NCBI GenBank assembly: GCA_003152315.1
Contig: PLZV01000019.1
Location: forward strand, 1 to 51,556
Length of the DNA stretch: 51,556 bases
Direction of reading: 5' to 3'
DNA from: Verrucomicrobiota bacterium
Lineage (GTDB): Bacteria; Verrucomicrobiota; Verrucomicrobiia; Palsa-1439
Shown: positions 23,041 through 50,778 of the stretch, piece by piece
Layout: each line of letters begins with the position of its first letter
Position numbering within the stretch: the stretch's first letter is position 1
Notes under the pieces: generated by a model
The model's input: only the letters and a program-made list of their open reading frames with translations
Databases searched by the model: none
What the model was told of the DNA's origin: nothing
Translations under genes and position numbers: made by a program

Positions 23041-23112
23041 GTTCGCCCGGTGCGTACCTGGCACCAAATTCTGACCGCGACAGACGACTCGCCCCAATGT
23101 CGTTTCCGTGCC

Positions 23113-23211
23113 AAACGAACCGGATTGAAATTCTCACCCTCTTGCTCCGCATCCAATTCCACCTCAACACGTTATCCCCTGTTTTCATGCTAAAATCAAT
23201 CCCGTTCGTTT
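23113..23211 (-). repeat. Structured inverted repeat, copy C
   Basis: The arms AAACGAACCGGATTGA (23113-23128) and TCAATCCCGTTCGTTT (23196-23211) pair over 16 bp with one mismatch across a 67-bp interior. The outer flanks CGTTTCCGTGCC (left) and CGCAGAAACACATG (right) match the flanks of copy B and, in reverse, of copy A. Confidence 0.75.
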
Positions 23212-23238
23212 CGCAGAAACACATGTTTTTCACGTCCC

Positions 23239-24219
23239 TCATCCCCGCGATAATTGCATCGTCACCGGCGGCGGAACCTCCTCGCCCTCCCGCCGTCGCT
23301 GCAACCTCTCCAGCTGGTTCATCGCCCGATACAATTGCCGCTCCAACGCGCTCTCATATCGCAAAATCTTGTCCAGCACCGCCGCCGCCGGCAACACGTT
23401 CGCCAACTGCTGCGCCGTTTCCTCCTTGTCCTCCCGTTCCTCGTTCTGGTCGTTCAACACTTCGTACCCCGCCAGCCTCCTCTCGATATATTGCACCACC
23501 GCCCGCTGATGGTTCTCCTTCGATACCTCGGGACTCAACCCGTCCTTATTCGCCAAATATCTCTCGCGATACCCCAAGAGTTCCCGCGTCAGGTGATTCG
23601 GCGCATTGATGAATCGCTTCAGCAACTGCTCATAAGTCGCCTCCGTCAATTCACCCTCGCGCTCCACGTCCGTGCGGACCGACCGCAATACCGCCTTCAG
23701 GTAATCCAGCCCCTGCGTCGATTTCTCCATCTGCACCGCCGCGTCATGCATCTTGTCCAGAAACATCCAGAGCGGCAACGGCGCGCGGTCCGCCCGACGC
23801 CGCAGCCCGCCGTCCACGCTCAACACGATCTCCCCCGTCTCCGCCATCAACACCCGCCGCAACCGCCACTGCGCCGTCACGATCCGGTCCACCAGCATTT
23901 CCTCCACCGACCCCACCGGCGCCAGGCACTGCCAGCACTGCTCCCGCAAAGCCCGGAACTCATTCTCATGCTCCTGGATCCGCAACCCCCGTACCACCAC
24001 TTCCGTCGAGAGAATCCCATGCTTCACCGCATTCATCCGCGAAACCGCCTTCCCCTTCGCCGTCCGCGGCCCCGTCGACCGCAGCGTGTTCCTTCGATTC
24101 GCCGAAAAGACTTTCTCAGACACCGTGTAATTGACCACCTTCTTACTCGTCCGCGTAGAATGGGCGTCCCGCCCGTTTTTGATCGGTTCGGCTGTGGGAG
24201 TGACATCTTGGGGGATCAT
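23239..24219 (-). CDS. Uncharacterised paralogue-pair protein (STGPRT/NAVKHG family), copy 1
   Basis: 326 residues from MIPQDVTPT, the start conserved with the copy at 49529; an upstream ATG at 24231 is not conserved. The most conserved block is ANRRNTLRSTGPRTAKGKAV followed by SRMNAVKHGILSTEVVV, basic and probably nucleic-acid-binding (inference). After it come long helices: EEMLVDRIVTAQWRLRRVLM, then SVDGGLRRRADRAPLPLWMF. The C-terminus is a charged coiled helix ending LERLQRRREGEEV. Similar proteins of unknown function are, from memory, frequent and multicopy in Verrucomicrobia, Acidobacteria and Planctomycetes. Promoter and 3' structure are shared with copy 2, so gene and flanks move or are conserved as a unit. 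No function is proposed. Confidence 0.8.
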   Translation of the reverse strand: MIPQDVTPTAEPIKNGRDAHSTRTSKKVVNYTVSEKVFSANRRNTLRSTGPRTAKGKAVSRMNAVKHGILSTEVVVRGLRIQEHENEFRALREQCWQCLAPVGSVEEMLVDRIVTAQWRLRRVLMAETGEIVLSVDGGLRRRADRAPLPLWMFLDKMHDAAVQMEKSTQGLDYLKAVLRSVRTDVEREGELTEATYEQLLKRFINAPNHLTRELLGYRERYLANKDGLSPEVSKENHQRAVVQYIERRLAGYEVLNDQNEEREDKEETAQQLANVLPAAAVLDKILRYESALERQLYRAMNQLERLQRRREGEEVPPPVTMQLSRG

Positions 24220-24321
24220 GACTCTGTCCATCCTTTTGTAGGTTACCCACCTTTCGATTGTAGAAGTATAGCAACCGTCCTCCCAGCCAATCGCTTCTTC
24301 CGGTTAGTGAACATGCCCCGC

Positions 24322-24350
24322 ACTATACCACTATCGTAATACGATGTCTA
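24322..24350 (-). promoter_or_regulatory. Conserved promoter of the paralogue element, copy 1
   Basis: On the minus strand: -35 TAGACA (24345-24350), a 17-bp spacer and -10 TATAGT (24322-24327). The same hexamers and spacing occur at 50697-50725, and TGGACA/TATGGT with 17 bp at 41042-41070. Confidence 0.75.
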
Positions 24351-24453
24351 GAAGAAATATTAATACCCGATTAATAATTCTCATTTCCGGCTTGACGAAG
24401 GGTCCGGCCGGCCCGCACCAGAGACAACTAAAGGAGAAGAGGCACCTGTAGCC

Positions 24454-24471
24454 GCAGGCTTTAGCCTGCGT
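24454..24471. repeat. REP-like palindrome, copy 2
   Basis: CGCAGGCT-TT-AGCCTGCG, flanked by GTAGC and TTGTAG. It has the same stem as 8592-8609 and 50779-50796 with a different centre. Confidence 0.75.
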
Positions 24472-24576
24472 TGTAGCCACGGCGTGCCGCCATTCGGCGG
24501 CATCCACGGTTCCGAGACCGGGACTCTGTCGGCGTGTTTCGCTTGCCACCGCTCCCGCCTCCATCCAATCCCCCGG

Positions 24577-24606
24577 ACCGTCATCCTGAGCGAAGTCGAA
24601 GGGTCT
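24577..24606. repeat. Dispersed repeat CATCCTGAGCGAAGTCGAAG
   Basis: The 30-bp unit at 24577-24606 recurs with one change at 24690-24719, and a shorter inverted version lies at 108-134. The stretch 24373-24800 otherwise shows no gene. Confidence 0.75.
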
Positions 24607-24689
24607 AGCCCGCCCACCAGAGAAACCCAAGAGCAACCAGATACCGCCAGTCTGAGCTAAGTCGCAACCACCGCCTCAATATTCCCCGC

Positions 24690-24719
24690 ACCGTCATCCT
24701 GAGCGAAGTCGAAGGATCT
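24690..24719. repeat. Dispersed repeat CATCCTGAGCGAAGTCGAAG, second copy
   Basis: Same unit as 24577-24606, ending GGATCT instead of GGGTCT. The two copies are direct repeats 113 bp apart. Confidence 0.75.
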
Positions 24720-24801
24720 CTGTCGTGTTCCGGTCGTTCTGCGAGAAGCTTTCCGCTGTCCGCTCTCGCCCCTCTCCCCTCTCGCTTCGCCCTTCCCCGA
24801 A

Positions 24802-24876
24802 ACCCTCCGGCACCGGCGCCCCGAACCGATCAGCCACCTTCTTCATATCAGCAGTTAGGGTATAGCGGCCGCACAT
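24802..24876 (-). pseudogene. SRAP (YedK/HMCES-like) N-terminal fragment 1
   Basis: The minus strand from 24876 reads MCGRYTLTADMKKVADRFGA and a few more residues, then diverges into low-complexity sequence. MCGRY with catalytic Cys2 is the hallmark of SRAP proteins, which crosslink to abasic sites in single-stranded DNA. Only about 25 of some 220 residues remain. A second fragment is at 33071. Confidence 0.65.
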
Positions 24877-25073
24877 GCTACCGTCATAATAATCGCAGCC
24901 GAGTTCGAGGGCAACATTCATACCCGCAGGGTAAGCTATCGGCTGACGTCACGGCGACAATGGGGCGACACTGGCGGCCAGTCGTTCTGCCGTCCCAGTC
25001 CGTTTCTTTTTTATGACTTGTCTTGGAATTGATTGGGCTGGCCCCCCCCCCGGGGTCACATCTCTATTTTCTA
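24877..25073. other. Spacer, no gene seen
   Basis: Contains a run of ten cytosines near 25042 and the motif GGGGTCACATCT (25054-25065). The latter is seen in inverted form at about 39572-39583 (AGATGTGACCCC). Confidence 0.45.
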
Positions 25074-25219
25074 CTATTGGTTATTGCGGCGGATGTGGCT
25101 GGTGCGGCCGCTTTCGTAAATGGTTCGGATGGGAATACTGACAATCCTGTGACCGGCGCGCGCTGCCTGGATTAACATCTCGGTTTCGGTCTCGAAACGC
25201 GCGGTTGAGAGCCGCAAAT
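25074..25219 (-). pseudogene. Glycosyltransferase family 2 C-terminal fragment
   Basis: The minus strand reads STARFETETEMLIQAARAGH and RIVSIPIRTIYESGRTSHIR before TAG at 25074-25076. This is the conserved end of dolichol-phosphate-mannose-synthase-like GT2 enzymes. The fragment begins immediately after the stop codon of the upstream secreted nuclease-like gene, in another frame, so the join is a rearrangement point. Confidence 0.65.
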
Positions 25220-25222
25220 CTT

Positions 25223-28200
25223 TCAGGGCACGAGACGGACGCGGTAGTAGCGGGCGGGCACGCTTATCGCGCCACCAACATCCAGATAATTCGTAGTGGT
25301 GCCCACGGTGTTAGTGACGCCGAAGATGTCGGCGAAGCCGTTGGTGGCATAACCGCCGCCCGGATTGCCGTTGGTCACCTGCAAGGCGTTCGTCTTGCCG
25401 GCCCCCATCGTCCAGCTAACCAGGACGTCCGTGCCTTGCGTCGTGATGGAGGTGATGCGAAAGGCCGACGCGCTGTTGGTCGGGTCGGTGCCGGCGAGGA
25501 ACTCCGCCAGATTGTTCAGGCCATCGCCATCGGCATCGACACCGGCGGCGGCGGCCGGATTGGTCGTGCTGCCGAAGTACTGAATCTGCCAGCTTTGAAA
25601 TGCCGTCCACACGGTAATGTAACCCGGCTTCGTGTTGGTGCTGACCCCGGCCGGTCCGCTGACAATCAAAGTGACCGGGTAGATGCCGGCGGCATAGGTG
25701 TGGACGACGCTGTTGGTCGTAATATTGGTCGTACTGCTGTCACCGAAATCCCAGAACCAGTTGCTGATCGTGCCGGTGGAATTGTCATTGAATGTGACCG
25801 TCAGCGGCTCGGTGCCCGTGATCGGGCTGCCGGTGAAGTCGGCCACCGGCGGGTTCGTGATATTTGTGCAGCAGAATGCGTCCTGAATGGACACCGTGTC
25901 GACATACCAACCATTGCCAATCGTGCTTGCCCCGCCCGTCACGCTGCCCTGAACTTTCAGGTTATCAATTCGCCAGGTACCGCCCGACGCTGTGGCGCTG
26001 TATCCGTAAAGGCGGAAGTAGATCGTGCCCGTCAGGTTTGAGAGTGTCAGCGGGAAACTGTTTGCGCCCGAGGCAATCACCGTATGCGCTGTTTGCTGGG
26101 CGCTGGTGTATATCCCGGATGAAAAATTCACGGTTTGGCTGATTTGCACCGTGAAGTTCGCCGGGCCACTGCCGGAACGTTGGTCGTCAAAGCTGAGGCT
26201 CGACAAGTTGGCCACGGAGCCGTTCGTTACGACGAGCGAAAAGGTAAAGCACGGCGTACTCGTCGTCGGTGGACCCGCCGTGGTCTGGAACCCGGTCGTG
26301 GCAATTGCCTGGCCGGTGCTGGGATTGCCGCCGAAGTACTGGATCGCGCCCGCATTCGAAGTCGTAACCGGGCTGGCGGAAATGTTCGTCATGACCACAG
26401 TCGGATTTGGTGTGGACCCGTCGAAATTCCAGTACGCCAGCGTACCCGACGATGTCACCGATCCGGGGGTGTTACCCGCCGCGCACCGCCAGCGCAGTTG
26501 AACGTTCTGGCCCGCCGCTGTCGCGGGCAGGTTCACAACCGTTGTGGCGAAAGCGCCGGAGTTTCCGCTCCACGCCTGCCGTCCGGCCAACGGGTTGCTG
26601 AAGTCGCCACTGAGTGTCGTATTGTAACCCCCGCTCACGAATGAGCCACCAGCCGCGACGATATCCGTGTATGAACCACCGCCAATCGCAATTTCAAGGA
26701 CGCCGCCGTCATAGCCAATCGAGTTATTGGTCGTGCTCGCGGCCAGGCTATAGTTTTGCCGGAACGTCAGCCGAGCCACACTGCTGTTGATCGAGATCGA
26801 AGGCGTGTCGAGTTCATTGACACCCACGCTGCTCGGATCGGGCGAGAACGCGGCGTTGGGCGCCGTGTCCGCCACTGCAGTGGACGTTACCCAATTGGAT
26901 TGCGCGCCGGTGGCTGATGTTGTCCAGCTGGCCGGCAAGGCTGGCACTGTGACGGCGTCAAAGTTCTGCGTGAAAACGTTGGTGGAGAGCCCGACCGGAA
27001 TGGTGTAACTGATGGTACCGAGATTTGCTGCTCCATCCTGCAATGCAAGAATCGCAGTGATTGCGCCGCCGCACGTGCCGCCGGCGGTGAAGCTAAACGC
27101 CTGGGACACCGGTGTGCCATTGGTCGAAACGACACCGTATGTTTGCGGATTGCTGGGCAGGTTCACGTCGCCGGTTCCCAACAGCGTCGCCACCAGGTTG
27201 GTCGTGTCGGCCGTGCCGGTATTCTTGACGGAGAGATTGACGGTCACCGTCTCGCCCGGATCCACCACGCCGTTACCGGGTGTGCAGCTCTCAGCGGACA
27301 ACGTCAAGCCGTTGGTGATGATCACGGGGAACGTGCTTTCGACGAGGAGGCTCACCGGACGCGTGGTGCTGCCGGCCCCGTTCGTTGTGTTGGTGAAAAC
27401 GACCGTGTCCGAATAACCACCGGCGGTCAGGCCGGTGGCACTGGCATTGATCGATACGGTGACGGTGACATCCGAACCGGGCGCGATCGTGCCGGCGGTG
27501 GACGAGAGCGTCACCCAACTGGCGCTCTTGCTGGCGCTCCAGGTGAGGTTGGAGTTGCCGGAGTTGCTCAGGTCGTAAGTCTGGTTCGTGGGGCTGAACG
27601 GGCCGCCCACGTGGCCCAAACTGGACAAACCACCCGCGGGGCTCACTGCCAGCAAAGCCCCCGACGCGAGTTGTACGGGTACTGCAAAGTCTTTCACCAC
27701 GGCCATGTGTTGCATACCGTTGGCGCTGTCAGAATCACCGAATTGAACCGGGGGAACGTCGCTCAAGGGTGTGTAGACCCGCGAGTCAAACACCAGTCCG
27801 TTGGGGAACGTGTTCGAAGGGAACACCACGGCCGTGAAGGCATTGGTCATCGAGTAGCTCTCCAGCACGTAGTCGTGAGGATGGTTGCGATTGATACTGG
27901 TGTCTGAGTTTCCCAGATTATCGACTGGAATGGGAGAATCGCTCACAAGAGCCGACAAGGTCGTAATCGCCGCTTCCGTGCGGGTATCCGTGTTGAAATC
28001 GCCGGCCACGATAATCCACGCATTACTGGGGAAGTTTGCCTGGATAAGCGTCGTGAGGTTGCCGGCCTCCGTGGCGCGCGCACCGGCGGAGCTGGTGAGT
28101 AGATGCACGCTGACGAGATAGAGATCGTTTGTTCCAGGCAGGTGGATTTGTGCCCAAGCGAAACCGCGGTTGCCTACTTGCGTGTCAACCCACGAGCCCG

Positions 28201-28561
28201 ACGCCACGATTGGATAACGGCTGATGATTCCGTTGGGGATGTCGCCGCTGCTCGTGTAGGGCTCGCGGAAATAGACAAAGGTAGTGCCGAAGGTGCTGTC
28301 GATCATCTCCCGAAAAGCCGCCGTCGTATTATTGCCGGCGCCGTTCGTGCTGGCGTAGTTGAATTCCTGAATTGCGACGATGTCCGGCTTCAACCCCTCG
28401 AAGATGTCCAAACCCGGCGTCAAGTAGCTCTGGTTGTTACCGGAGGAAATGTTGGCGCCCACCACGCGGACTACCACGTTGGACTGGGCCAAGGCCGTGA
28501 TTGCGCACAGGCCGAAGCCCGTCGCTGCGATCCAGATACTACAATATCTTCTGATTTTCAT
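25223..28561 (-). CDS. Secreted multidomain endonuclease/exonuclease/phosphatase-family protein
   Basis: 1112 residues from the ATG at 28561, chosen because a signal peptide then starts at once (IWIAATGFGLCAITALAQ). The first 300 residues are an EEP (DNase I-like) domain with intact residues: an Asn near VVGANISSGN, the metal Glu in IVAIQEFN, His in VSVHLLT, Asp/Asn in VAGDFNTD, HPHDYV and a C-terminal His in GMQHMAVV. A BACON-like beta domain follows (about 315-415: WSASKSASWVTLSSTAGTI), then a CARDB-like domain (430-520), beta-sandwich regions, and a PKD domain (about 940-1030: FNDNSTGTISNWFWDFGDSS). The end has LNNLAEFLAGTDPTNSASAF and the YYRV module. It is probably an extracellular nuclease for nutrient scavenging. 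Phosphodiesterase activity on another substrate is possible. Confidence 0.87.
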   Translation of the reverse strand: MKIRRYCSIWIAATGFGLCAITALAQSNVVVRVVGANISSGNNQSYLTPGLDIFEGLKPDIVAIQEFNYASTNGAGNNTTAAFREMIDSTFGTTFVYFREPYTSSGDIPNGIISRYPIVASGSWVDTQVGNRGFAWAQIHLPGTNDLYLVSVHLLTSSAGARATEAGNLTTLIQANFPSNAWIIVAGDFNTDTRTEAAITTLSALVSDSPIPVDNLGNSDTSINRNHPHDYVLESYSMTNAFTAVVFPSNTFPNGLVFDSRVYTPLSDVPPVQFGDSDSANGMQHMAVVKDFAVPVQLASGALLAVSPAGGLSSLGHVGGPFSPTNQTYDLSNSGNSNLTWSASKSASWVTLSSTAGTIAPGSDVTVTVSINASATGLTAGGYSDTVVFTNTTNGAGSTTRPVSLLVESTFPVIITNGLTLSAESCTPGNGVVDPGETVTVNLSVKNTGTADTTNLVATLLGTGDVNLPSNPQTYGVVSTNGTPVSQAFSFTAGGTCGGAITAILALQDGAANLGTISYTIPVGLSTNVFTQNFDAVTVPALPASWTTSATGAQSNWVTSTAVADTAPNAAFSPDPSSVGVNELDTPSISINSSVARLTFRQNYSLAASTTNNSIGYDGGVLEIAIGGGSYTDIVAAGGSFVSGGYNTTLSGDFSNPLAGRQAWSGNSGAFATTVVNLPATAAGQNVQLRWRCAAGNTPGSVTSSGTLAYWNFDGSTPNPTVVMTNISASPVTTSNAGAIQYFGGNPSTGQAIATTGFQTTAGPPTTSTPCFTFSLVVTNGSVANLSSLSFDDQRSGSGPANFTVQISQTVNFSSGIYTSAQQTAHTVIASGANSFPLTLSNLTGTIYFRLYGYSATASGGTWRIDNLKVQGSVTGGASTIGNGWYVDTVSIQDAFCCTNITNPPVADFTGSPITGTEPLTVTFNDNSTGTISNWFWDFGDSSTTNITTNSVVHTYAAGIYPVTLIVSGPAGVSTNTKPGYITVWTAFQSWQIQYFGSTTNPAAAAGVDADGDGLNNLAEFLAGTDPTNSASAFRITSITTQGTDVLVSWTMGAGKTNALQVTNGNPGGGYATNGFADIFGVTNTVGTTTNYLDVGGAISVPARYYRVRLVP

Positions 28562-28675
28562 AATGGCCGACATGGGCGCACAAACAGTCAAGTTTTTTTA
28601 CCACAGGTTTGAGCCATCCCGCAAGCCTTTTCTGCATTGGCCTTCAGAATCATCACTATCTGGCATGTCGGATAG

Positions 28676-29446: not shown

Positions 29447-29447
29447 A

Positions 29448-30608: not shown

Positions 30609-30621
30609 AGTCTGGGCTTCC

Positions 30622-31071
30622 TTACGCCTTCGGTTTCTCAGTGCACTGCGGCCGCGCGCCGGCCGGCAGCGGTGGCGCTTCCACGCCCGCCTTCGGTAAC
30701 GTCCCGTCCAATTCCTGACGCCAATGGGCGACGTCGCCGGCCGGACCGTAGCAGTAAATCATCCGCAACGGTTTGTCGCCGATGTTGGTGAGTTGATGAA
30801 AGACGCGTGGCGGAATGAAGACCGCCTGGCCGGTGGTTACAGTCTGGCGTTCATCGCCCAGACACATCTCACCGGTGCCTTCCACGACGAAGTAGATTTC
30901 CTCCTGCTCCTGATTGTGCCAGGGCACCTGGCCGCCATTGGGTTCGAGCGTGACGTTGCCCATGCAGAAATTCTTCGCCTGGATCGGCGACGCACCCCCG
31001 ACGACGTTCTGCGTCCGGCGGCGGGCTGGATACGTGCGACCAGAAATCTTGTTGAGGTCGGCAATGATCAT
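30622..31071 (-). CDS. Cupin-domain protein, possibly KdgF-like
   Basis: 149 residues from the ATG at 31071, after GGGGGGAT and overlapping the GH88 stop (ATGA). Single cupin domain: metal ligands in VPWHNQEQEEIYFVVEGTGE and the second motif PPRVFHQLTN. KdgF proteins are small cupins that help open unsaturated uronates released by lyases and GH88-type hydrolases. Translational coupling to the GH88 gene makes that role plausible (inference). A sugar isomerase or mannose-6-phosphate isomerase-like cupin is the alternative. Confidence 0.85.
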   Translation of the reverse strand: MIIADLNKISGRTYPARRRTQNVVGGASPIQAKNFCMGNVTLEPNGGQVPWHNQEQEEIYFVVEGTGEMCLGDERQTVTTGQAVFIPPRVFHQLTNIGDKPLRMIYCYGPAGDVAHWRQELDGTLPKAGVEAPPLPAGARPQCTEKPKA

Positions 31072-40797: not shown

Positions 40798-41041
40798 GGT
40801 GTCCTCATTTTATGGGTAAAAGCGGGTGGGTTCATTTTTCGTAATCATAGTGAGTCGAGGGTGCGCCAAGTTCGCCGCAACCTCTTGTCGCTTGCCAGCC
40901 GATAGCTGATTCTGTAGACGCCATAGCGCATGTCGCCGGGTGTTTGCAAGGCGAATTGTTCACAGGCCAGCTAACGGACAGCCCGGGCGGCTTCGACAAA
41001 CCCAGGATGACAGGTGCGGAATCGGGTACTGATATTTCTTC

Positions 41042-41070
41042 TGGACATCGTATTGCGATAATGGTATGGT
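41042..41070 (+). promoter_or_regulatory. Conserved promoter of the paralogue element, copy 3
   Basis: -35 TGGACA, a 17-bp spacer (TCGTATTGCGATAATGG) and -10 TATGGT. Spacing and spacer sequence match copies 1 and 2, but there is no gene downstream. Confidence 0.65.
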
Positions 41071-41157
41071 GCGGGCATGTTCTCTAGGCGTGAGAATATG
41101 AGAGTGAGTTGCAACCAACCCCCACCCTCCTGCTTCGGTCAAGGCACGCAAAACAGC

Positions 41158-41191
41158 GGCGCGAAACCCTTCGGGCTTCGCGCCCTACAAT
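41158..41191. repeat. Dispersed palindrome GGCGCGAAACCC...CGCGCC
   Basis: A 34-bp unit with near-perfect arms GGCGCGAAACCC and GGGCTTCGCGCC around TTC, ending CTACAAT. It recurs in inverse orientation, with one change, at 50569-50602. Confidence 0.75.
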
Positions 41192-41273
41192 CGGACCAGC
41201 GAACAAGCGCGACAAGATGGCGCAGTTTCGTCGCTTCAGGGGAGAGAAAGCCCCCCCCATATACGTTTCTGCG

Positions 41274-41371
41274 AAACGAACCCACCGTTTTGCGATGATT
41301 CTTTTGATGTAACCACCAATGAGTACGGCAGTTGCGATGGAAACTCGTCAAAGAAATCGGTGGGTTCGTTT
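41274..41371 (+). repeat. Structured inverted repeat, copy A
   Basis: The 14-bp arms AAACGAACCCACCG (41274-41287) and CGGTGGGTTCGTTT (41358-41371) are perfectly complementary across a 70-bp interior. The interior shares TTGATGTAACC and AGTTGC with copy B at the same offsets. In copy B the inner arm bases are CCCGAAT/ATTCGGG instead of CCCACCG/CGGTGGG, a compensatory difference. Confidence 0.8.
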
Positions 41372-41419
41372 TGGAAAACGAACCCAATTTTAGGGGGTTT
41401 CGACGTGCTTTTACAACGA

Positions 41420-42739: not shown

Positions 42740-42934
42740 GGGGGGACAATAGCGAAATCGTCGCACGGTTGCGAACGCGATATTCCTACCAAATTCAGGT
42801 TCAATCTCCAGAAGCTCTCCCAGCGGACAAAATGGCACTGTTTCAAGCGCATCGGAGGGGCAAAAAAACACACCGAATTGGCCGAAATCACCCAGTTTCC
42901 GGTGTGGCACACGAGTTGCGCAATAAACAGGTTG

Positions 42935-45900
42935 ATGAACCGTGCCTCTACCCACACGCTCGAGCCGGTAGGCGCCGAGAACGGCCGGACAGAGGCGCAC
43001 TTTCGCTCACTGATTGAAAACACCACCGACATCATCACCATCCTGGAGGCTGACGGCAACATCCGCTACGAAAGCCCGTCCATCGAGCGCATTCTCGGCT
43101 ACAAGCCAGAGGAATTGATTGGGCGTAATGTTTTCGAGTTAATCCACCCTGACGATGTTGCCAGAATCCAAAAGATTTTTACCGAGGGCCTGATCCGGGC
43201 CGGCCGCATCGAATCCGGCGAGTATCGGTTCCGCCACAAGGACGGTTCATGGCGAGTTTTTGAAGGGATCGGTAAGAGCCTTCTTGAGGATCCCACCGTC
43301 CGGGGAGTCATCGTCAACTCCCGCGACATCACGGAGCGCAAGCGGATGGATAATGCGTTGCACAAGGTGCAGCAACAGCAACGCGCGCTTCTCGACAACA
43401 TTCCCGACCTGGCCTGGGTCAAAGACACACAGAGCCGATACATCGCCGCCAATGAAGCGTTCGCCGAGGCCCTGGGTTGCACGCCCGAAGAAATGGTCGG
43501 CAAGACCGATTTCGATTTTGTGCCTCGCGACCTGGCGGAACACTATACTGCCGACGACAAACAAGTGATGGAGCTGCGTCAGCGCAAGTACATCGAAGAA
43601 CCTTTTGTAGACGCCGCGGGGAACCGCATCTGGGTTGAAACAATCAAGTCCGCGGTCTTGAACGATCAGGGAGAGGTTGCCGGGACGACCGGTGTCGCCC
43701 GCGATATCACCAAGCGCAAGCAAATGGATCAAGCGCTGCGCACAAGCGAAGAGCGGTACCGGACCCTGTTCGAGACGATGCGGGAAGGATTCGCCTTGTG
43801 CGAGATCATCTGGGATGCGGACGGCAAGCCTTGTGATTACCGTTATTTAGATGTTAACCCGGCGTTTGAGAAGATCCTGGGCGTCACGCGCAGTCAGACG
43901 ATCGGCAAGACAGTGCGAGAAATCTTCCCGCAAGTGGAGGAGTATTGGATCGATATCTACGGCAAGGTCGCCCTCACCAGCCAGCCCACTCGATTTGAGC
44001 ATTATTTGCGCGCCGTGGACAAACACTTTGAGGTGGCTGCCTTCAGCCCGAAACGCGGCCAGTTTGCCGCGATCTTCTCGGACGTAACCGGGCGCAAGCA
44101 AAACGAGGAACGCCTCCGCCTCCAAAGCACGGCCCTGGAGGCCGCCGCAATCGGCATCGCCCTCACCGACAGCAAGGGAACGATCCTCTGGGTCAACCCG
44201 GCCTTCACGAAGTTGACCGGCTACACCGTCGCGGAAGCCATCGGCCAAAATATGCGGCTGCTGAAGTCGGGCAAGCACGATGAAGGTTTTTATCGCAACC
44301 TTTGGGAGACGGTGAATTCAGGCAAGGTCTGGCAGGGCGACATAATCAACCGCCGCAAAGACGGCAGCCTCTATGATGAAGGGATGACGATCACGCCCGT
44401 GCGCGACGAGCGCGGTGAAAGCACCTACTTCATCGCGATGAAGCAAGACATCACGGACCGCAAGCAGGCGGAAACGTCGCTGCGCGAGAGTGAAGAATTG
44501 TTCCGCTCGCTGAGCGTTTCCTCACCGCTGGGTATCTTTCTCACCGACATCCAGGGCCGATTGACATACGCCAACCCCCGCTGCCGTGAACTCTACGGCT
44601 TCACGCTGATGGAGAGCCAGAACGATGGGTGGACGCAATTCATCCATGTCGATGACCGCGAATGGGTCACCCGGCAATGGCAGGTATTCATCACCGACGG
44701 GATCGATTATTCCTGTGAGTATCGCGTCTGCCATCGCAATGGTAACGTCCTGTGCGTCCATGTGCGTGCCGGCCGCATGCAGTCAGAGCGCGGTGAGTCG
44801 ACGGGCTTCGTCGGGACCATCGAGGATGTTACGCTCCGCAAACGGTCAGAAGACGATCTGCGGGAAAGCAAACAGAAACTGGAGCACGCGCTGGAAGAGT
44901 TGCAGGAGGCCCAACAGCAAGTCATCCAGCAAGAACGCCTGCGGGCGCTGGGCACCATGGCCAGCGGCATTGCCCACGATTTTAACAACGCCCTGGCCGC
45001 CATCCTCGGCTTCACCGAACTCTTGATCTATCGTCCTGAAACCCTTGCCGACAAGGAAAAGACACTGCGCTTTCTCCAGATGATGAACACCGCGGCCAAG
45101 GATGCGGGCAACGTCGTCAACCGTCTGCGTGAGTTTTACCGCCAGCGCGAGGAAGGCGAAGTTTTTGTCCCGGTCGATCTCAACCGCCTCGCGGAAGACG
45201 CTGTCTCCCTCACCCAGCCGAAATGGAAGAACCAAGCGGAGGCCAACGGTATCGCCATTCACGTGGCCACCGAATTGGGCAACATTCCAACGGTCGACGG
45301 CAACGCCGCCGACCTGCGCGAGGCGCTCACTAACCTCATTTTTAACGCCGTTGACGCCATGCCCCAAGGCGGGACGATTACGTTACGCACCCGGCTCAAC
45401 AACTCCCGCGTCATTCTTGAGGTCATCGACACTGGCACGGGCATGACCGATGAGGTCCGAACCCGTTGTCTCGAACCGTTCTTCACCACCAAAGGCGATC
45501 GCGGTACGGGCCTTGGCCTGTCGATGGTCTACGGCATTCTCCAGCGCCACCAGGGCACCGTCGACATCCAATCGAAGCTGGGGAATGGTACGACATTCAT
45601 TCTTTCGTTGCCCATCGCCGTCAAACCACAACCGCCAAAGGAAACTGACTCCGCACCGTGCGTCCTTCGCCCGTTGCGTGTGCTGTTGGTGGATGACGAG
45701 GATCTTGTACGGCGAATTCTCAAAGAGTTTCTGCTGGGTGACAAGCACATCGTGGAGACCGCTGCCCACGGAAAGGAAGCCCTTGACAAATTCCAGCGCG
45801 CGGAGTTCGACGTCGTGATTCTTGACCGCGCGATGCCGGACATGAGCGGCGACCAAGTCGCTTTGTCCATCAAGCAACTCAAGCCAGAAACACCCATCAT

Positions 45901-46063
45901 CCTGCTCACCGGCTTCGGCTCCATGATGCAAGCCGCCGGCGAACAACCTCCTGGCGTGGATCTGGTTGTCAGTAAGCCCGTCACCATCCTCGGCCTGCGC
46001 GAAGCGGTGGCGAAGGTGGTCGCGAAGTATTCTCCCGCCACGCCCGCCGCGCTCAACGCGTGA
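42935..46063 (+). CDS. Hybrid sensor histidine kinase with five PAS domains
   Basis: 1042 residues from ATG 42935. The frame is open back to 41360, but that stretch is the antisense of waaA and is rejected. There are five PAS/PAC units of about 120 residues: 25-145, 148-268, 270-388, 390-515 and 515-640, each ending in a DIT-x-RK-type hinge. A coiled coil (LEHALEELQEAQQQVIQQER) precedes the HisKA domain with His681 in SGIAHDFNN. The ATPase domain has NLIFNAVDAMP, DTGTGM and GTGLGLSM. The C-terminal receiver has phosphoacceptor Asp964 (ILDRAMPD). There are no membrane segments, so it senses cytoplasmic redox, light or ligands. The response regulator gene converges just downstream. Confidence 0.93.
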   Translation: MNRASTHTLEPVGAENGRTEAHFRSLIENTTDIITILEADGNIRYESPSIERILGYKPEELIGRNVFELIHPDDVARIQKIFTEGLIRAGRIESGEYRFRHKDGSWRVFEGIGKSLLEDPTVRGVIVNSRDITERKRMDNALHKVQQQQRALLDNIPDLAWVKDTQSRYIAANEAFAEALGCTPEEMVGKTDFDFVPRDLAEHYTADDKQVMELRQRKYIEEPFVDAAGNRIWVETIKSAVLNDQGEVAGTTGVARDITKRKQMDQALRTSEERYRTLFETMREGFALCEIIWDADGKPCDYRYLDVNPAFEKILGVTRSQTIGKTVREIFPQVEEYWIDIYGKVALTSQPTRFEHYLRAVDKHFEVAAFSPKRGQFAAIFSDVTGRKQNEERLRLQSTALEAAAIGIALTDSKGTILWVNPAFTKLTGYTVAEAIGQNMRLLKSGKHDEGFYRNLWETVNSGKVWQGDIINRRKDGSLYDEGMTITPVRDERGESTYFIAMKQDITDRKQAETSLRESEELFRSLSVSSPLGIFLTDIQGRLTYANPRCRELYGFTLMESQNDGWTQFIHVDDREWVTRQWQVFITDGIDYSCEYRVCHRNGNVLCVHVRAGRMQSERGESTGFVGTIEDVTLRKRSEDDLRESKQKLEHALEELQEAQQQVIQQERLRALGTMASGIAHDFNNALAAILGFTELLIYRPETLADKEKTLRFLQMMNTAAKDAGNVVNRLREFYRQREEGEVFVPVDLNRLAEDAVSLTQPKWKNQAEANGIAIHVATELGNIPTVDGNAADLREALTNLIFNAVDAMPQGGTITLRTRLNNSRVILEVIDTGTGMTDEVRTRCLEPFFTTKGDRGTGLGLSMVYGILQRHQGTVDIQSKLGNGTTFILSLPIAVKPQPPKETDSAPCVLRPLRVLLVDDEDLVRRILKEFLLGDKHIVETAAHGKEALDKFQRAEFDVVILDRAMPDMSGDQVALSIKQLKPETPIILLTGFGSMMQAAGEQPPGVDLVVSKPVTILGLREAVAKVVAKYSPATPAALNA

Positions 46064-46100
46064 GGGTTTCCGTCCTTCTTTCCCGCGCGGCTGTCCGCCG

Positions 46101-46562
46101 CTACGGGTTCGCCTCCCGGGAAGCCCGCTCACGCATATCCCGGACAGCAAGGATGTACTGGTTCAGACGCTCTACATGGTCGGAGACGTGCGCCGTCTTA
46201 AACACCGCGCGAATGCGAATCAACAGTTCCTCCACCGCGAACGGTTTGCCCAGAAAATCATCAGCTCCCGCCTCCATGCATTCTTCGAGGCGACCCGCCG
46301 CCGTCAGGGACGTGATAATAATGACGGGGATGTTCCGAGTGTCCTTGCCCGCCCGGATCGCCTTGCAGAATGTCAGTCCATTCAACTTGGGCATGTTAAC
46401 GTCGAGCAGGATCAAATCCGGCATCAACGCCAGCGTCTTCTGCACCGCATCCTTGCCATCGACCGCCGTATAGACCAGCGTATTCTCGAGCACGAGAATG
46501 CTTTCCAATACCTCCCGCATCCCCGGATCGTCGTCGACCACCAAGACTTTTCGTTCGTTCAA
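46101..46562 (-). CDS. Response regulator (receiver with short C-terminal extension)
   Basis: 153 residues. Receiver: DDD at 10-12, phosphoacceptor Asp54 (ILLDVNMP), IITS and Lys in LGKPFA. The C-terminal 30 residues (HVERLNQYILAVRDMRERAS) form a helix but no known output domain. It is convergent with the hybrid kinase 38 bp away, so a functional pair is possible, though divergent partners are equally likely. The spacer 46563-46814 holds a CTTTAGCGACGGCGGATTC repeat and no gene. Confidence 0.9.
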   Translation of the reverse strand: MNERKVLVVDDDPGMREVLESILVLENTLVYTAVDGKDAVQKTLALMPDLILLDVNMPKLNGLTFCKAIRAGKDTRNIPVIIITSLTAAGRLEECMEAGADDFLGKPFAVEELLIRIRAVFKTAHVSDHVERLNQYILAVRDMRERASREANP

Positions 46563-46814
46563 ATGAATCCCCGCGCTCTCCAGTGCTTATACCGTCTCGC
46601 CGTCCCTCAAACAAGTTTTTCAAACCGAGCGGAGCGCGACTACCAGCCTCGCCAGCTTCTCCGCCATAGCTTTAGCGACGGCGGATTCCCCGTATGTCAA
46701 AGAACCGAGCGGACTATACACATCTCTTCAATGGCGTGTCCAGCAAAACTATCGATTGAAGATAATTGGGTGTTTCGCCGGCATATCTTCCTCCATCCTT
46801 CCAGAACTACCCGG

Positions 46815-47276
46815 CTACTTGGCGGGCGCGGCGGGTGGCGTCCACTCCTCCTTGTGACCGAAGCCGATTTGATTGTCGATCAACCGGATCCATGTGGTGT
46901 CGATTCGCCACATCGCGGTATTCACCAACTCTCGCGTCAGAATTGCGTTGGGCTGTTGTAGGAAGGGGAACCGCGCGCTGTAGATCTCCCACGCCTGCGC
47001 CCGCTCGGAAGCGCGGAGCGGGCGACAGATGCCGCGAAACTGGACGCCCCGGATCTCACGCCAGTGTTGACGGTCGAGTTGGATCGTGCCCGCGACGGAC
47101 GGATTTGCCAGCATCGCCTTCCCGTGACGTGTCGCCGGATCCGTCACCACCTGGAAACGCAACTCATCGTCGACGGCATAGAACAGCGCAGCCGCGTAGG
47201 GGCTGCCATCCGCTTCCATGACAGCCAGCGTCAGCACCTGGTGTTCGCGGAGGAACTTCAGCAATCGTTCGCGCAC
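46815..47276 (-). CDS. Pyridoxamine-5'-phosphate-oxidase-like FMN-binding split-barrel protein
   Basis: 153 residues. The split-barrel pattern of YhbP/PNPOx-like proteins is visible: LREHQVLTLAVMEADGSPYA at the start, then LRFQVVTDPATRHGKAMLAN and VAGTIQLDRQHWREIRGVQF, with a C-terminal WIRLIDNQIGFGHKEEW. The protein probably binds FMN or haem; the substrate is unknown. It follows the HPr-fusion gene by 1 bp in the same direction, so the two are cotranscribed. Confidence 0.82.
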   Translation of the reverse strand: MRERLLKFLREHQVLTLAVMEADGSPYAAALFYAVDDELRFQVVTDPATRHGKAMLANPSVAGTIQLDRQHWREIRGVQFRGICRPLRASERAQAWEIYSARFPFLQQPNAILTRELVNTAMWRIDTTWIRLIDNQIGFGHKEEWTPPAAPAK

Positions 47277-47277
47277 C

Positions 47278-47907
47278 TCAATCTTGCAATGCCTCGTTTG
47301 CCAGCGGCTGCTTTGTCAGCAATTCTGCAAGCATCTTCAACGCTTGCTTGGCTTGGGAGCCGGTGGCGATGAACTCCAGTGTGTCGCCGAGTATCGTTCC
47401 CACGGACAGCAAGCCGAGGATGGATCGCACGTTCATGTAGGGGCGTCCTTCCAGCACGAAATTGTAGTACAGCATGCCTTCCCGATGCACGTAAATGTCG
47501 CAATCGAACTTCGCAGCGAGACCGGCCACGGCGGAGGCAGGTCGCAGATGCAGCCCATCCTTGTTCTGAATGGTCACCAGCACTCTCTCGAAGCCGTTCC
47601 GCTCCAGGGATTCACTTTCCGCACGCCAGATGTGGGCGTACTTCTGGCACCATTCCTCGGCTGCTGAAGTCTTGCCAATGTCCCGACCCTCTTCCATGGA
47701 GCGAAGGAACTTGTGCTTCTCGATCTCCTGCCGCTGCGCTAGATTGTCCCTTCGTAGCTTCTCGTTCCGCCAGTCTTTGGCGTAATTCTGTACGAAATCG
47801 GCAATCGCCTCCTCAATGGTCACTTCGGTCCCGCGTCTTAGCGAAAGGTAATACTTGTGCTCCTCGATGGCTTTCAGCTCGGTGGCGGTGAGGTTGGTCC
47901 CGTTCAT
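47278..47907 (-). CDS. HPr-domain protein with duplicated N-terminal module
   Basis: 209 residues from MNGTNLTA. Residues of about 107-195 form an HPr-like domain with the phosphoacceptor His120 in GLHLRPASAVAGLA and the later segment NVRSILGLLSVG. The N-terminus holds two related units of about 33 residues (14-46 and 63-95) sharing HKxxLS-type, A..FVQNYAKDWR / A..WCQKYAHIWR sequence, an internal duplication I do not recognise as a named domain. The serine-46-type region (NVRSILGL) is present, so both HPr phosphorylation sites may exist. It may be a regulatory carrier acting with the HTH-PTS IIA protein at 9641 (inference). Confidence 0.82.
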   Translation of the reverse strand: MNGTNLTATELKAIEEHKYYLSLRRGTEVTIEEAIADFVQNYAKDWRNEKLRRDNLAQRQEIEKHKFLRSMEEGRDIGKTSAAEEWCQKYAHIWRAESESLERNGFERVLVTIQNKDGLHLRPASAVAGLAAKFDCDIYVHREGMLYYNFVLEGRPYMNVRSILGLLSVGTILGDTLEFIATGSQAKQALKMLAELLTKQPLANEALQD

Positions 47908-48010
47908 TTTCAATCCCCCGGCTTACTCCGAATCCACAGCGATACCCACTGGCCTGAAAAGACCCGGAAACTCAATCGGCACACACATGATCTGGTCAGT
48001 CCTGCGCCGA

Positions 48011-48436
48011 TCAGGCCAGTTTCTTCAAAGTGTCTGTCGCTTTCTTGGCGTCCTCAGCAGTGTCGAGCGCCAGATAGCAGACGAATTTCGTCCCGACCCC
48101 GGCCGCCGAAAGACCACGCAGATTGATGCCCGCCCCGGACAACGCCTTCGCCATCTTCGCGCCCAAGCCCGGCTTGTCTATTCCCTCGATCCGCAAGGAG
48201 TGCAGGCTGCCGGTCCTCAGAAAACCTGCGGCCTCGGCGGCCTTCACCTGCTTCGCCCCTTTCAAAGGGGTGACGAACACGACACCCTTGCCGGGTCGCT
48301 CGGGCGCCCGACGAGCGATGACGAATTCCAAATTGGATCCCGCCGCCGTCAGCGCTGCCAACTTTTCCGCCAGGCCGCCTACCCGGTCCTTAATGCTTAC
48401 CGCCCACACATCCACCGGGGTCACTTTAAGTTTCAT
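48011..48436 (-). CDS. ACT-domain protein (two ACT modules)
   Basis: 141 residues in two similar halves. First half: VWAVSIKDRVGGLAEKLAAL and EFVIARRAPE. Second half: LRIEGIDKPGLGAKMAKALS and GINLRGLSAAGVG. ACT modules bind amino acids or related small ligands. There is no enzymatic domain, so it is a stand-alone sensor or regulator. An A/G-rich ribosome site (AGGAGGGCGG) precedes the ATG. Confidence 0.87.
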   Translation of the reverse strand: MKLKVTPVDVWAVSIKDRVGGLAEKLAALTAAGSNLEFVIARRAPERPGKGVVFVTPLKGAKQVKAAEAAGFLRTGSLHSLRIEGIDKPGLGAKMAKALSGAGINLRGLSAAGVGTKFVCYLALDTAEDAKKATDTLKKLA

Positions 48437-48496
48437 AACCGCCCTCCTCCTGGTTGGTTTCGTATTCTCCCGCGATCAGCTCTTGTCTATCGACGT

Positions 48497-48940
48497 CTAC
48501 CGCGCCAAATGTGATTGCGATTTCCACACCCTCCCCAGTATCTGCAGCGTTTCGGGTTGGAGCGTCTTCTCGATCAGGGGAAACACCGTCCGCTCCTCCT
48601 CACTGAAGTGGGCGCGACAGGCGTCCAGCGCCACCTTCAGTTGGGTGCGGGCTTTTTGAAGATCCTTGATCGCTTCCACTTTTTTCAGAAGCACATCAAT
48701 TTCCTGATGATCGTGGTGCAAACGGGTCAGGTGGTTTTTCTGATGGAGGATATGATCCAGGGCGATATATGCCAAATCCGTTTCCGCCCCCCCGTGGTCG
48801 TGAAGCGGTGCTTCCAGCAGACGGCACAACAACCCGATCTCTTCCACGGTCTTGACGCCGGGCAACGCGTGTTCCACCTGGTCGAACAGCATCAGGAACA
48901 CGCGGTGCTCGGCCACTAACCCATCGATAATCGTCATCAA
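48497..48940 (-). CDS. Hemerythrin-like domain protein
   Basis: 147 residues, all helical, with the di-iron ligand set of the hemerythrin HHE family: VAEHRVFLMLFDQVEH, LHDHGGAETDLAY, LTRLHHDHQEI and AHFSEEERTVFPLIE. It may bind oxygen or nitric oxide or store iron. Same strand as the ACT and HPr genes, but separated by 60 bp. Confidence 0.87.
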   Translation of the reverse strand: MMTIIDGLVAEHRVFLMLFDQVEHALPGVKTVEEIGLLCRLLEAPLHDHGGAETDLAYIALDHILHQKNHLTRLHHDHQEIDVLLKKVEAIKDLQKARTQLKVALDACRAHFSEEERTVFPLIEKTLQPETLQILGRVWKSQSHLAR

Positions 48941-48991
48941 ATCAATCCCAATCGTCGCGCCCGCTAACTCAACTCTGGCACTCGGGGCGCA

Positions 48992-49216
48992 CTACTGCTT
49001 CTGCGCTGCCTTGAGCTTTTTCCAACGCGCCCGCTGGGCGGCAGCGATTCTCGCACGGCCTGCCTTGGAGAATCTCGGCTTGCGTCGGCCCGTCGTAAAG
49101 ACCGTCGTCCGAATTCCGCCGAGCGCCTTGACCGCGATATCGATCTGGCCCAGTTCGGCGGCAACCGCCAGCCGCCGTTCGCGCAACAGCTTCACCGCAT
49201 CTGTGTAAATTTTCAT
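48992..49216 (-). CDS. Small basic protein (hypothetical)
   Basis: 74 residues after GGCGAGGCAATC. The N-terminus MKIYTDAVKLLRERRLAVAA is a helix. The C-terminus KPRFSKAGRARIAAAQRARW followed by KKLKAAQKQ is strongly basic and resembles a short motif seen at the end of many small proteins in these phyla (from memory). It is a possible nucleic-acid-binding protein. No function is claimed. Confidence 0.65.
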   Translation of the reverse strand: MKIYTDAVKLLRERRLAVAAELGQIDIAVKALGGIRTTVFTTGRRKPRFSKAGRARIAAAQRARWKKLKAAQKQ

Positions 49217-49304
49217 GATTGCCTCGCCTTGTTGGTTGTCCCATCTCCCGCGCCCCTGATGCTAACTCGCCGCCGCTGATTGTCAATTCCTCCGTTTTCC
49301 GGCC
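49217..49304. other. Spacer before the inverted-repeat structure
   Basis: The gene-poor stretch 49217-49528 consists of this spacer, the structured repeat 49305-49401, its right flank, and a CGCCAAAGCCTTGGCGACGG repeat near 49436. No gene is seen. Confidence 0.45.
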
Positions 49305-49401
49305 AAACGAACCCGAATCACTTTTCCAGAAGTTCATTTGCAACTCTCATATGGATACAGGGTTACATCAATAGTCGCATCACTATAATTCGGGTTCGTT
49401 T
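49305..49401 (-). repeat. Structured inverted repeat, copy B
   Basis: Perfect 14-bp arms AAACGAACCCGAAT (49305-49318) and ATTCGGGTTCGTTT (49388-49401) around 69 bp. On the minus strand the interior contains TTGATGTAACC and AGTTGC at the same distances from the arm as in copy A. Confidence 0.8.
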
Positions 49402-49528
49402 CGCAGAAACACATGTTTCGAGGTCCTCCTCATCCGCCAAAGCCTTGGCGACGGCGGATTCCTTTTCCCTCCCTTAAACGTTGGATGTTGGAAGTTGAGC
49501 GTTCAGTGTTCATCCTTTCACTCCCCCT

Positions 49529-50542
49529 TCATCCCCGCGATAACTGCATCGTCACCGGCGGGGGAACGTCCTCACCCTCGCGCCGACGCTGCAACCGCTC
49601 GAGCTGGTTCATCGCCCGATACAGCTGCCGCTCCAATGCATTTTCATACCGCAAAATCTTGTCCAGCACCGGCGCGGATGGCAACACATTCGCCAACTGC
49701 CGCGCCGTTTCCTCCTTGTCCTCTCGGTCCTCGCTCCGGCTGCTCAATTCCTCATACTCAGCCAGTTTCCTCTCGATGTACTGCAGTACCGCCCGCCGAT
49801 GATTGTCCTTCAACTCTTCGGGACTCAACCCATCGGCGTTCGCCGTCATCCTCTCGCGATACCCCAAAAAGTTCCGCGTCAGGTAATTCGGTTCGTTGAT
49901 AAATCGCCTCAGCAACTGATCACAAGCAGCCTGCGTCAATTCACCGTCCCGCTCCACGTCCTCGCGGACCGACCTCACGACCGCCCTCAGGTAATCCAGC
50001 CCCTGCGTCGACTTCTCCATCTGCACCGCCGCGTCATGCAACTGGTCCACGAATATCCCCAGCGGCAGCGGCGCGCGGTCCGCCCGACGCCGCAACCCGC
50101 CGTCCACGCTCAACACGATCTCCCCCGTCTCCGCCATCAACGCCCGCCGCAACCGCCACTGCGCCGTCACGATCCGGTCCACGAGCATTTCCTCCATCGG
50201 CCCCTTCGGTGCCAGGCTCCTCCAGCACCGCTCCCGCAACCCCCGAAACTCTTCCTCATGCTCCTGGATTCGCAACCCCTTCACCACCACCTCCGTCGAA
50301 AGAATCCCGTGTTTCACCGCATTCATCCGCGTAACCGCCTTCCCTTCCGGCGTGCGCGGCCCCGTGGACCTCCGCGCATTCCTCCGATTCGAAGCCCTTG
50401 ATTTCTCGGACGCCGTATAGGTCCTGCCGCGTGTCTCTTTTCGCGGCGAAACAGCAACTTGGCCTTCGTAGCGTCCTCGCGAAGTAGGCTCCGCAGTTTG
50501 CTTCACTAACTCCGTGGTGGGGTTGACATCATTGGGAATCAT
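49529..50542 (-). CDS. Uncharacterised paralogue-pair protein (STGPRT/NAVKHG family), copy 2
   Basis: 337 residues from MIPNDVNPTTE. It is paralogous over its whole length to the protein at 23239-24219, with the N-terminal 45 residues most diverged (extra RGRYEGQVAVSPRKETRGRT). It keeps SNRRNARRSTGPRTPEGKAV, SRMNAVKHGILSTEVVV, EEMLVDRIVTAQWRLRRALM and SVDGGLRRRADRAPLPLGIF. The C-terminal LERLQRRREGEDVPPPVTMQ is almost unchanged. Such near-complete conservation between two loci, including promoter and 3' structure, argues that both are expressed or were recently duplicated. No catalytic motif is recognised. Confidence 0.8.
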   Translation of the reverse strand: MIPNDVNPTTELVKQTAEPTSRGRYEGQVAVSPRKETRGRTYTASEKSRASNRRNARRSTGPRTPEGKAVTRMNAVKHGILSTEVVVKGLRIQEHEEEFRGLRERCWRSLAPKGPMEEMLVDRIVTAQWRLRRALMAETGEIVLSVDGGLRRRADRAPLPLGIFVDQLHDAAVQMEKSTQGLDYLRAVVRSVREDVERDGELTQAACDQLLRRFINEPNYLTRNFLGYRERMTANADGLSPEELKDNHRRAVLQYIERKLAEYEELSSRSEDREDKEETARQLANVLPSAPVLDKILRYENALERQLYRAMNQLERLQRRREGEDVPPPVTMQLSRG

Positions 50543-50568
50543 GACTCTGGCCTTTCTCTAGGGTTTTG

Positions 50569-50602
50569 ATTGTAGGGCGCGAAGCCCGAAGGGTTTCGTG
50601 CC
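50569..50602. repeat. Dispersed palindrome, inverse copy of 41158-41191
   Basis: ATTGTAGGGCGCGAAGCCC followed by GAAGGGTTTCGTGCC. One base differs in the arm compared with 41158-41191. It lies in the leader of the copy 2 paralogue gene. Confidence 0.75.
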
Positions 50603-50696
50603 GTGGGTGTTGCCCTCCGCCATGGGCAGATAAAAACGCGGTTGCCCCTCCACCCAACCGCATCTCCATCTTCTCCCAGGAAGAGAACATGCTCGT

Positions 50697-50725
50697 ACTA
50701 TACAGCTATCGCAATCCGATGTCTA
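50697..50725 (-). promoter_or_regulatory. Conserved promoter of the paralogue element, copy 2
   Basis: On the minus strand: -35 TAGACA (50720-50725), a 17-bp spacer and -10 TATAGT (50697-50702). The hexamers and spacing are identical to 24322-24350. Confidence 0.75.
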
Positions 50726-50778
50726 GAAGAAATATCGCTACCCGATTCCCTGCCTGTCACCCCGGGTTCGGTTGTAGT

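Follow-up and report, generated by a model that had tools for sequence, protein, structure and literature searches.

A 51,556-nucleotide stretch of DNA from a Verrucomicrobiota bacterium (GenBank assembly GCA_003152315.1, contig PLZV01000019.1; the whole stretch is called the window below) contains three loci with a repeated unit, in which an operator palindrome, a sigma70-like promoter, an unconserved stretch and an inverted-repeat module of about 134 bp follow each other in this order. The hairpin end of the unit carries the same short word that follows the gene of a helical protein, characterized by an STGPRT block, in distant bacteria. In the course of evolution, units seem to have exchanged this end, while promoter and chromosomal place stayed. 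The best explanation, tentative and with less than even confidence, is a system of modules resembling REPINs (repetitive extragenic palindromic (REP) doublets forming hairpins), with the helical protein as partner.

When the sequence was read directly, all parts named in an earlier sequence-only reading could be identified at the three loci, including the sigma70-like promoter with its 17-bp spacer. Two of the loci encode the proposed paralogous proteins, of 330 and 337 amino acids, which are 77% identical. The similarity of the third, gene-less locus (unit 2) exceeds chance: positions 41010-41192 match 50757-50568 with an E value of 3e-16. In BLAST comparisons, 183 bp were common to unit 2 and the leader of the gene-bearing unit 3, and the left block at 24372-24305 was matched by the gene-less copy at E 8.5e-17. 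The inverted-repeat structure was present at all three loci, with a size of about 134 bp instead of the ∼98 bp given before.

To this extent the three copies were borne out, but their number was an undercount. A DNA search of the whole own genome (G000, 4.89 Mb in 62 contigs; a draft, like the other genomes used) with the gene-less copy resulted in 143 matches. Its right block was found at dozens of sites and its left block at ∼20, often paired 100-400 bp apart, indicating that the three loci are a corner of a large family. An alignment of 58 right ends was used to build a covariance model of the hairpin module, which identified at least 149 copies in G000, all matching the whole model, and at least 86 copies in G002 and 42 in G001, the other two genomes of the genus. 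The module was absent from all 36 other relatives among the 39 genomes searched (own genome included). Since contig ends lie within ∼600 bp of a hairpin at four places in G000 (C36:84, C56:228, C61:181266 and C39:535), the draft assembly may lack some copies. Unit 2 had been regarded as a gene-less derivative; it does keep the leader of a gene-bearing unit, but the gene-less form is the norm and not the exception.

The module (about 134-170 bp) contains two AAACGAACC arms in a fixed geometry. Each arm consists of 14 bp, of which nine positions are nearly fixed and five are variable, and the arm types CACCG, GGATT, CGAWT and CAWWT could be distinguished. The distance between the arm starts was 87, 88 or 89 bp in 61 of the 61 right ends collected first, and differed by at most 1 bp from the mode in 220 of 225 cases in a looser scan counting both strands. 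The covariation of the arms, which had been suggested before, is real: at the five variable positions, Watson-Crick pairs were observed in 111, 111, 111, 109 and 101 of 113 units, compared with 79, 58, 46, 42 and 57 when arms were shuffled. These units were picked by their outer arms and promoter; an earlier selection by inner-arm complementarity had biased the pair counts. Although 73 of the 113 units stem from loci fetched by the model, which itself includes the arm pairs, 17 units found by a plain 10-mer search gave 17, 16, 17, 17 and 15 pairs. From position six on, pairing was near background. G-U pairs were nearly absent (0, 1, 0, 0 and 3 at the five variable positions), and there is thus no sign of arm pairing at the RNA level. 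Six example hairpins had RNA folding z values of -2.7 to -5.3. An RNA-level hairpin as sole reason for the pairing was rejected, because G-U pairs are nearly absent and pairing ends after five positions. A known RNA family was rejected as well, since no Rfam match at threshold was obtained for the hairpin; at the gathering threshold the window yielded tRNA alone, and the best weak match (E 0.38) was in unit 2.

A predicted promoter motif, CTGGACAT-N13-15-GGTATAGT, was found within 400 bp upstream of 105 of the 126 hairpins with enough flank (at most four mismatches), at a median distance of 179 bp (range 95-400 bp). The controls gave four matches downstream, two on the opposite strand and none in shuffled upstream DNA. 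The 21 hairpins with no promoter in this range include three gene-bearing units, in which it lies 1.1-1.3 kb upstream, several second or third hairpins behind one promoter, and some hairpins without any promoter. Tandem arrangements of two or three hairpins behind one promoter were noted at L139, L160, L077, L138, L144, L174, L035, L043, L098, L116 and L177. In a profile of 88 units, conservation starts ∼23 bp before the -35 box and fades 35-60 bp past the second arm; the stretch between promoter and hairpin (the cargo) is unconserved. The left block carries palindromes of the form TATCG-N5-CGATA, either upstream of the -35 box (O1) or between the -35 and -10 boxes (O2). With at least 8 of 10 positions required, 64 of the 113 G000 units had O1 only, 41 had O2 only, four had both and four had neither. 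Across the whole window the loose pattern was not enriched (20 against 15.6 expected), and it is therefore the family profile that carries the operator signal. The promoters are predicted to be active, and the units would be transcribed from them. The cargo often contains other small palindromes, several of them with GTAG ends by eye (41158-41184, 50568-50620 and in many units), which look like ordinary GTAG-type REPs and possible partners of the Y1 transposases of the genome.

The strongest signal in the data is the linkage between the gene of the helical protein and the arm word. The core of the arm, the 9-mer AAACRAASS, lies behind the stop codon of this gene. It was counted on either strand at 26 loci with a usable 3′ side; L204, where the gene runs off the contig, and L206, L215, L224, L225, L226 (the same gene as L223), L229 and L231-L233 (fragments) were left out. 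The 9-mer occurs within 150, 300 and 600 bp after the gene at 17, 18 and 23 of the 26 loci, respectively, and within 600 bp before it at one; by our own arithmetic, chance would place it behind the gene at ∼1 of 26. Among 141 genomes of the class, the protein was found in eight, one of which (G087) has a weak partial match, and the word TTGCSAAACRAASCCA in eight as well. All seven genomes with the full protein have the word, compared with one of the 134 others; in this exception, G039, the single copy lies inside coding sequence by its look. A reversed control word occurs in two of the 141 genomes. The hypergeometric p is ∼4e-11 if the genomes are treated as independent, which they are not, as they represent four genera. 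The contrast is also seen within genera: in g2, G009 has both protein and word and G003 neither; in g10, G013 and G020 have both and G028 and G052 neither. The Chloroflexota genome G144 (5.2 Mb) has a single 14-mer form, which to judge from its position stands behind the gene, on the other strand; G132 likewise has one, behind the gene. Several genomes contain the word a single time, or at a frequency close to chance when the gene is set aside. The inverted arm partner is a feature of the genus. It had been stated that the unit would fail as a concept if the protein occurred elsewhere without promoter block and repeat. This is partly the case: outside the genus the protein is found without this promoter block and often with a single arm, but the arm stays behind the gene.

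In G020, a genome from a different family of the class, direct word copies form 12 pairs with a spacing of 107-109 bp. These pairs follow the gene, non-coding cargo or apparent gene remnants. Three further spacings (100, 101 and 111) involve a third copy, and five examined loci contain one exact copy only. By eye, L231 and L233 are gene remnants without the middle, which suggests that gene-less derivatives formed by internal deletion, as proposed for the window, exist in G020. In the window, unit 2 has the above 183 bp in common with a gene-bearing leader.

The own genome contains four copies of the gene, three of which lie in units. The fourth (L005, G000 C36, 1000-2134) has one arm behind it and no visible operator-promoter block, like the distant homologues. 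The conserved basic block of the protein was confirmed, as was the absence of a transposase domain inside the unit (Pfam and NCBIfam, at cut-off). The protein itself matched no Pfam or NCBIfam family at cut-off and no PHROG at E 0.1, and PADLOC gave a single weak match for one homologue (MTase_II, E 0.016). A phage or plasmid origin was rejected, since no relative was found among IMG/VR viral contigs, plasmids and phages. AlphaFold2 with eight sequences resulted in an all-helical model of modest confidence (predicted local distance difference test, pLDDT, 64.7; predicted template modelling score, pTM, 0.40), and a known fold was dismissed because Foldseek gave no match at E 1e-3. In 21 pairs among seven genes of G000 and G002, the ratio of nonsynonymous to synonymous substitution rates (dN/dS) was 0.25-0.55 (0.30 for the genes of units 1 and 3), demonstrating purifying selection. 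A search of genome contigs identified ten loci encoding a relative: four in Verrucomicrobia metagenome-assembled genomes (MAGs), the others in Chloroflexota, Planctomycetota, Alphaproteobacteria (three, one of them Methyloceanibacter) and one Absconditabacterales MAG. In five distant loci (G009, G013, G132, L200 and L201) a KTSC gene was seen by eye just upstream of the gene for the helical protein, and PF13619 was matched in all four upstream genes tested. The two genes possibly form an operon.

Which part of the unit moves was studied at orthologous sites, located in G002 and G001 by flanking proteins; 40 more G002 loci were fetched. The sequence-only reading had described the whole unit as a mobile element, and for recent movement of the whole this was not supported, as 30 of 52 distinct G002 units (four of the 52 fetched as orthologous sites) are at places orthologous to G000 units. 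Empty sites in relatives had been proposed as a check: of nine anchored G002 sites, six had a unit or at least the promoter and three had none. L017 is the sole empty G002 site bracketed by both flanks, with ragged junctions that do not coincide with the unit ends and no visible target duplication; its counterpart in G001 aligned with one flank alone. L056 and L090, also without a unit in G002, were not bracketed by both flanks. No unit was detected at four anchored G001 sites. With one bracketed empty site of this kind, transposition of the whole unit could not be shown.

A comparison with the 113 G000 units resulted in 33 orthologous rows. Four were dropped (L159/L363, both L043/L334 rows and L074/L132), the L159/L363 and L043/L334 rows because the G002 unit was matched twice or more and the true orthologue is uncertain, though their flank identity was higher. 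In the 29 pairs kept, the promoter class agreed in all 29 (14.7 expected by shuffling) and the hairpin type in seven (8.2 expected, p 0.80); with no row dropped, the hairpin type agreed in eight of 33. The best paralogous module was closer than the orthologous one in 28 of 29 pairs, with medians of 0.785 and 0.625, respectively. G002 also has a unit at the kdtA site of unit 2; promoter and start of the leader align, and the hairpin is of the GGATT type, compared with the CACCG type in unit 2. At two orthologous sites, a complete module in one species corresponds to a lone arm in the other. Among the G000 units, module type does not depend on promoter class (chi-square p 0.83), and cargo differs between the modules that are most alike (up to 91%). 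It is concluded that hairpin modules have been replaced, or gained and lost, at fixed promoter chassis.

These results can be combined in the following mechanism. Each transcription unit would have an operator-bearing promoter of its own and a hairpin module as its 3′ end. The helical STGPRT protein would recognize the core of the module arm, the same word that stands behind the stop codon of its gene, and AAACGAACCCA is the candidate binding sequence, as DNA or RNA. The protein, or a complex recruited by it, would act on the word in such a way that hairpin modules copy or recombine between units. An incoming module would overwrite the resident one, with promoter, cargo and chromosomal place unchanged, and units without the gene would be served in trans. 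Since no other signal in the data is as strong as the linkage of word and gene, the helical protein is favoured as the word-recognizing factor. We infer that the turnover would be driven by this protein and not by a Y1 transposase or ordinary recombination. A more far-reaching version, according to which ∼150 fixed chassis share a pool of hairpin modules that is exchanged without a known recombinase and driven by a family of helical DNA- or RNA-binding proteins, with the word AAACRAASCCA attached to the gene from Verrucomicrobiota to Chloroflexota, is considered doubtful. If true, it would represent a new kind of protein-guided module turnover, similar to REPIN-RAYT systems (RAYT, REP-associated tyrosine transposase) or integrons in its working but built from unrelated parts. 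The gene with the repeat word encodes a protein in which no catalytic signature is seen, the repeats lie downstream of a predicted regulated promoter of their own, and at conserved chromosomal sites one repeated end takes the place of another. The linkage of one short word to one orphan gene family across phyla allows a direct test of nucleic-acid recognition by the protein, and a family without a domain name could gain a function.

Several observations count against this mechanism. The three most distant, partial relatives, which are proteobacterial, lack the word. In most of the distant genomes there is a single arm and no dispersed copy, and binding could therefore be purely autoregulatory. 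Promoters, like modules, resemble a paralogue more than the orthologue in most pairs (27 of 29), and the identity of non-coding flanks has fallen almost to background (0.58 against 0.56), so that part of the contrast between promoter and hairpin could be drift. Ten of the 29 orthologous modules are still recognizably alike (inner identity of at least 0.71), and among the seven pairs with anchored flanks on both sides, four keep the hairpin type. No catalytic domain was found in the protein, and its modest-confidence model has no PDB fold match at the threshold given above. Finally, a hairpin lies no more than 1.5 kb from four of the 11 Y1 transposase-domain matches in the genome, compared with 1.14 expected (Poisson 0.029), and a Y1 enzyme may thus act in trans.

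The units could instead be a regulon useful to the host, consisting of ∼150 non-coding RNA genes under one operator, with the hairpin as 3′ processing or protein-binding element that is homogenized by gene conversion. Conservation of promoter class and position between species, next to non-coding DNA near background, the operator palindrome common to the units, and the greater likeness of paralogous modules all fit such a regulon, and gene conversion is a possible agent of turnover. However, the cargo shows no conservation, and the ∼30 bp on the left and ∼60 bp on the right that are partly shared around a variable middle offer little homology for recombination, with the flanks outside the module at background. 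The near absence of G-U pairs gives no sign of RNA-level pairing, and the occurrence of the same word behind one gene family across phyla is left unexplained. A regulon is judged unlikely.

In bacteria, dispersed REP-type hairpins are as a rule attributed to Y1 transposases. The hairpins might be REPINs proper, moved by one of the RAYT-like Y1 transposases of the genome, with the helical protein as regulator or hitch-hiker. This is rather improbable, although the vicinity of Y1 matches and hairpins mentioned above agrees with it and the arm geometry is REPIN-like. The profile of the module ends has no conserved GTAG or CGTC tag, and the palindromes with GTAG ends, which by eye would be the expected RAYT partners, form another family within the cargo. 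The four distances between Y1 match and hairpin are 386-1119 bp and not those of immediate flanks, and the word follows the gene of the helical protein. At L082 and L083 (G000 C57 and C49) there are two near-alike Y1 transposase open frames of 330 amino acids, probably of a recently active element.

A protein that binds its own 3′ end, as DNA or RNA, and whose site was multiplied in the genus as decoys, would require no protein-driven mobilization. The single 14-mer behind the gene, seen for example in G132 and G144, the KTSC neighbour in the five distant loci and the basic N-terminal block in a helical model are all compatible with such autoregulation. It leaves unexplained the swapping of module types at fixed sites, the tandem modules behind one promoter and the gene-remnant units in G020, and is regarded as quite improbable. 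The REPIN-like system with the helical protein as partner is retained as working explanation. The coordinates of the units in the window are given in Table 1.

Table 1. Features of the three units in the window (positions of the whole stretch) and Y1 transposase-domain matches near hairpins in G000 (contig:position).
Feature	Position	Strand	Evidence
Unit 1, left end and promoter	24322..24372	-	Coordinates counted from sequence; family profile
Unit 1, O1-like palindrome AATCG-N5-TAATA	24372-24358	-	
Unit 1, -35 TAGACA	24350-24345	-	
Unit 1, O2 palindrome CATCG-N5-CGATA	24346-24332	-	
Unit 1, -10 TATAGT	24327-24322	-	
Unit 1, gene of 330-aa helical protein with STGPRT...MNAVKHG block	23239..24231	-	
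Unit 1, hairpin module, GGATT-type arms, left arm GAACGGGATT	23094..23228	-	Covariance model E 3.0e-16; folding z -4.6
Unit 2 (gene-less), left end	41020..41070	+	Conserved at orthologous G002 site
Unit 2, O1	41020-41034	+	
Unit 2, -35 TGGACA	41042-41047	+	
Unit 2, O2	41046-41060	+	
Unit 2, -10 TATGGT	41065-41070	+	
Unit 2, leader and cargo, related to gene-bearing leader	41071..41255	+	BLAST E 3.0e-16
Unit 2, cargo palindrome with GTAG end (end read by eye)	41158-41184	+	
Unit 2, hairpin module, CACCG-type arms and third arm copy (tail)	41257..41390	+	E 9.8e-24; folding z -5.3
Unit 3, left end	50697..50747	-	
Unit 3, O1	50747-50733	-	
Unit 3, -35 TAGACA	50725-50720	-	
Unit 3, O2	50721-50707	-	
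Unit 3, -10 TATAGT	ending 50697	-	
Unit 3, gene of 337-aa helical protein	49529..50542	-	
Unit 3, hairpin module, CGAATT-type arms	49286..49418	-	E 4.8e-17; folding z -4.4
Y1 matches near hairpins	G000 C61:75510, C49:25338, C18:2213, C33:131892		

In addition, the repeat ttcgacttcgctcaggatgacgg occurs more than once upstream of unit 1 (24380-24800), and parts of it also adjoin the left ends of units 2 and 3. At 21821-22753, two adjacent open frames of 114 and 195 amino acids may be one interrupted gene.

In a literature search that covered few subscription journals, no published system was recognized as this combination of promoter and hairpin. Known systems resemble parts of it. A promoter at the 5′ end and a conserved 3′ module that turns over are reminiscent of retroelements of the short interspersed element (SINE) type; copying from the 3′ end, however, would leave the promoter itself uncopied. 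Retro-copying lost support, as reverse transcriptase PF00078 was found in neither G000 nor G002 (one match in G001). Gene-less copies, terminal inverted arms and the apparent internal-deletion derivatives in G020 recall miniature inverted-repeat transposable elements (MITEs), from which the units differ in that the gene has no transposase domain, many units are positionally conserved between species and no target duplication was seen at the one site examined.

With integrons and clusters of attC sites lacking integrases (CALINs) the units share a fixed promoter followed by exchangeable foldable 3′ elements, sometimes two or three in a row. In contrast to these, the loci are dispersed and no cassette genes were recognized. 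The attC boxes read RYYYAAC and GTTRRRY, and the arms AAACGAACC and GGTTCGTTT, compared by eye with this consensus, do not seem to fit them. The integron integrase TIGR02249 did not exceed the cut-off in any of the three genus genomes, and the integron reading therefore lost support; tyrosine recombinases below cut-off were found in the genus genomes as in all 14 control genomes.

The closest likeness is to REPIN/RAYT systems. REPINs have two conserved inverted ends at a fixed spacing with a spacer between them, and copies of the end beside the partner gene (PMC3116915); GTAG repeats are found in Verrucomicrobia, according to a second report (PMC3733652). The hairpins described here agree in being dispersed, extragenic and of high copy number, with two inverted ends at a fixed distance and a repeat end that stands beside a gene. 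In contrast, no Y1 (HUH) domain is encoded by the word-bearing gene, which is multicopy here and has a helical product, the end profiles have no GTAG or CGTC tetramer, and the arms are direct repeats in G020. Moreover, the hairpins stand behind a dedicated promoter, and modules replace one another at fixed sites.

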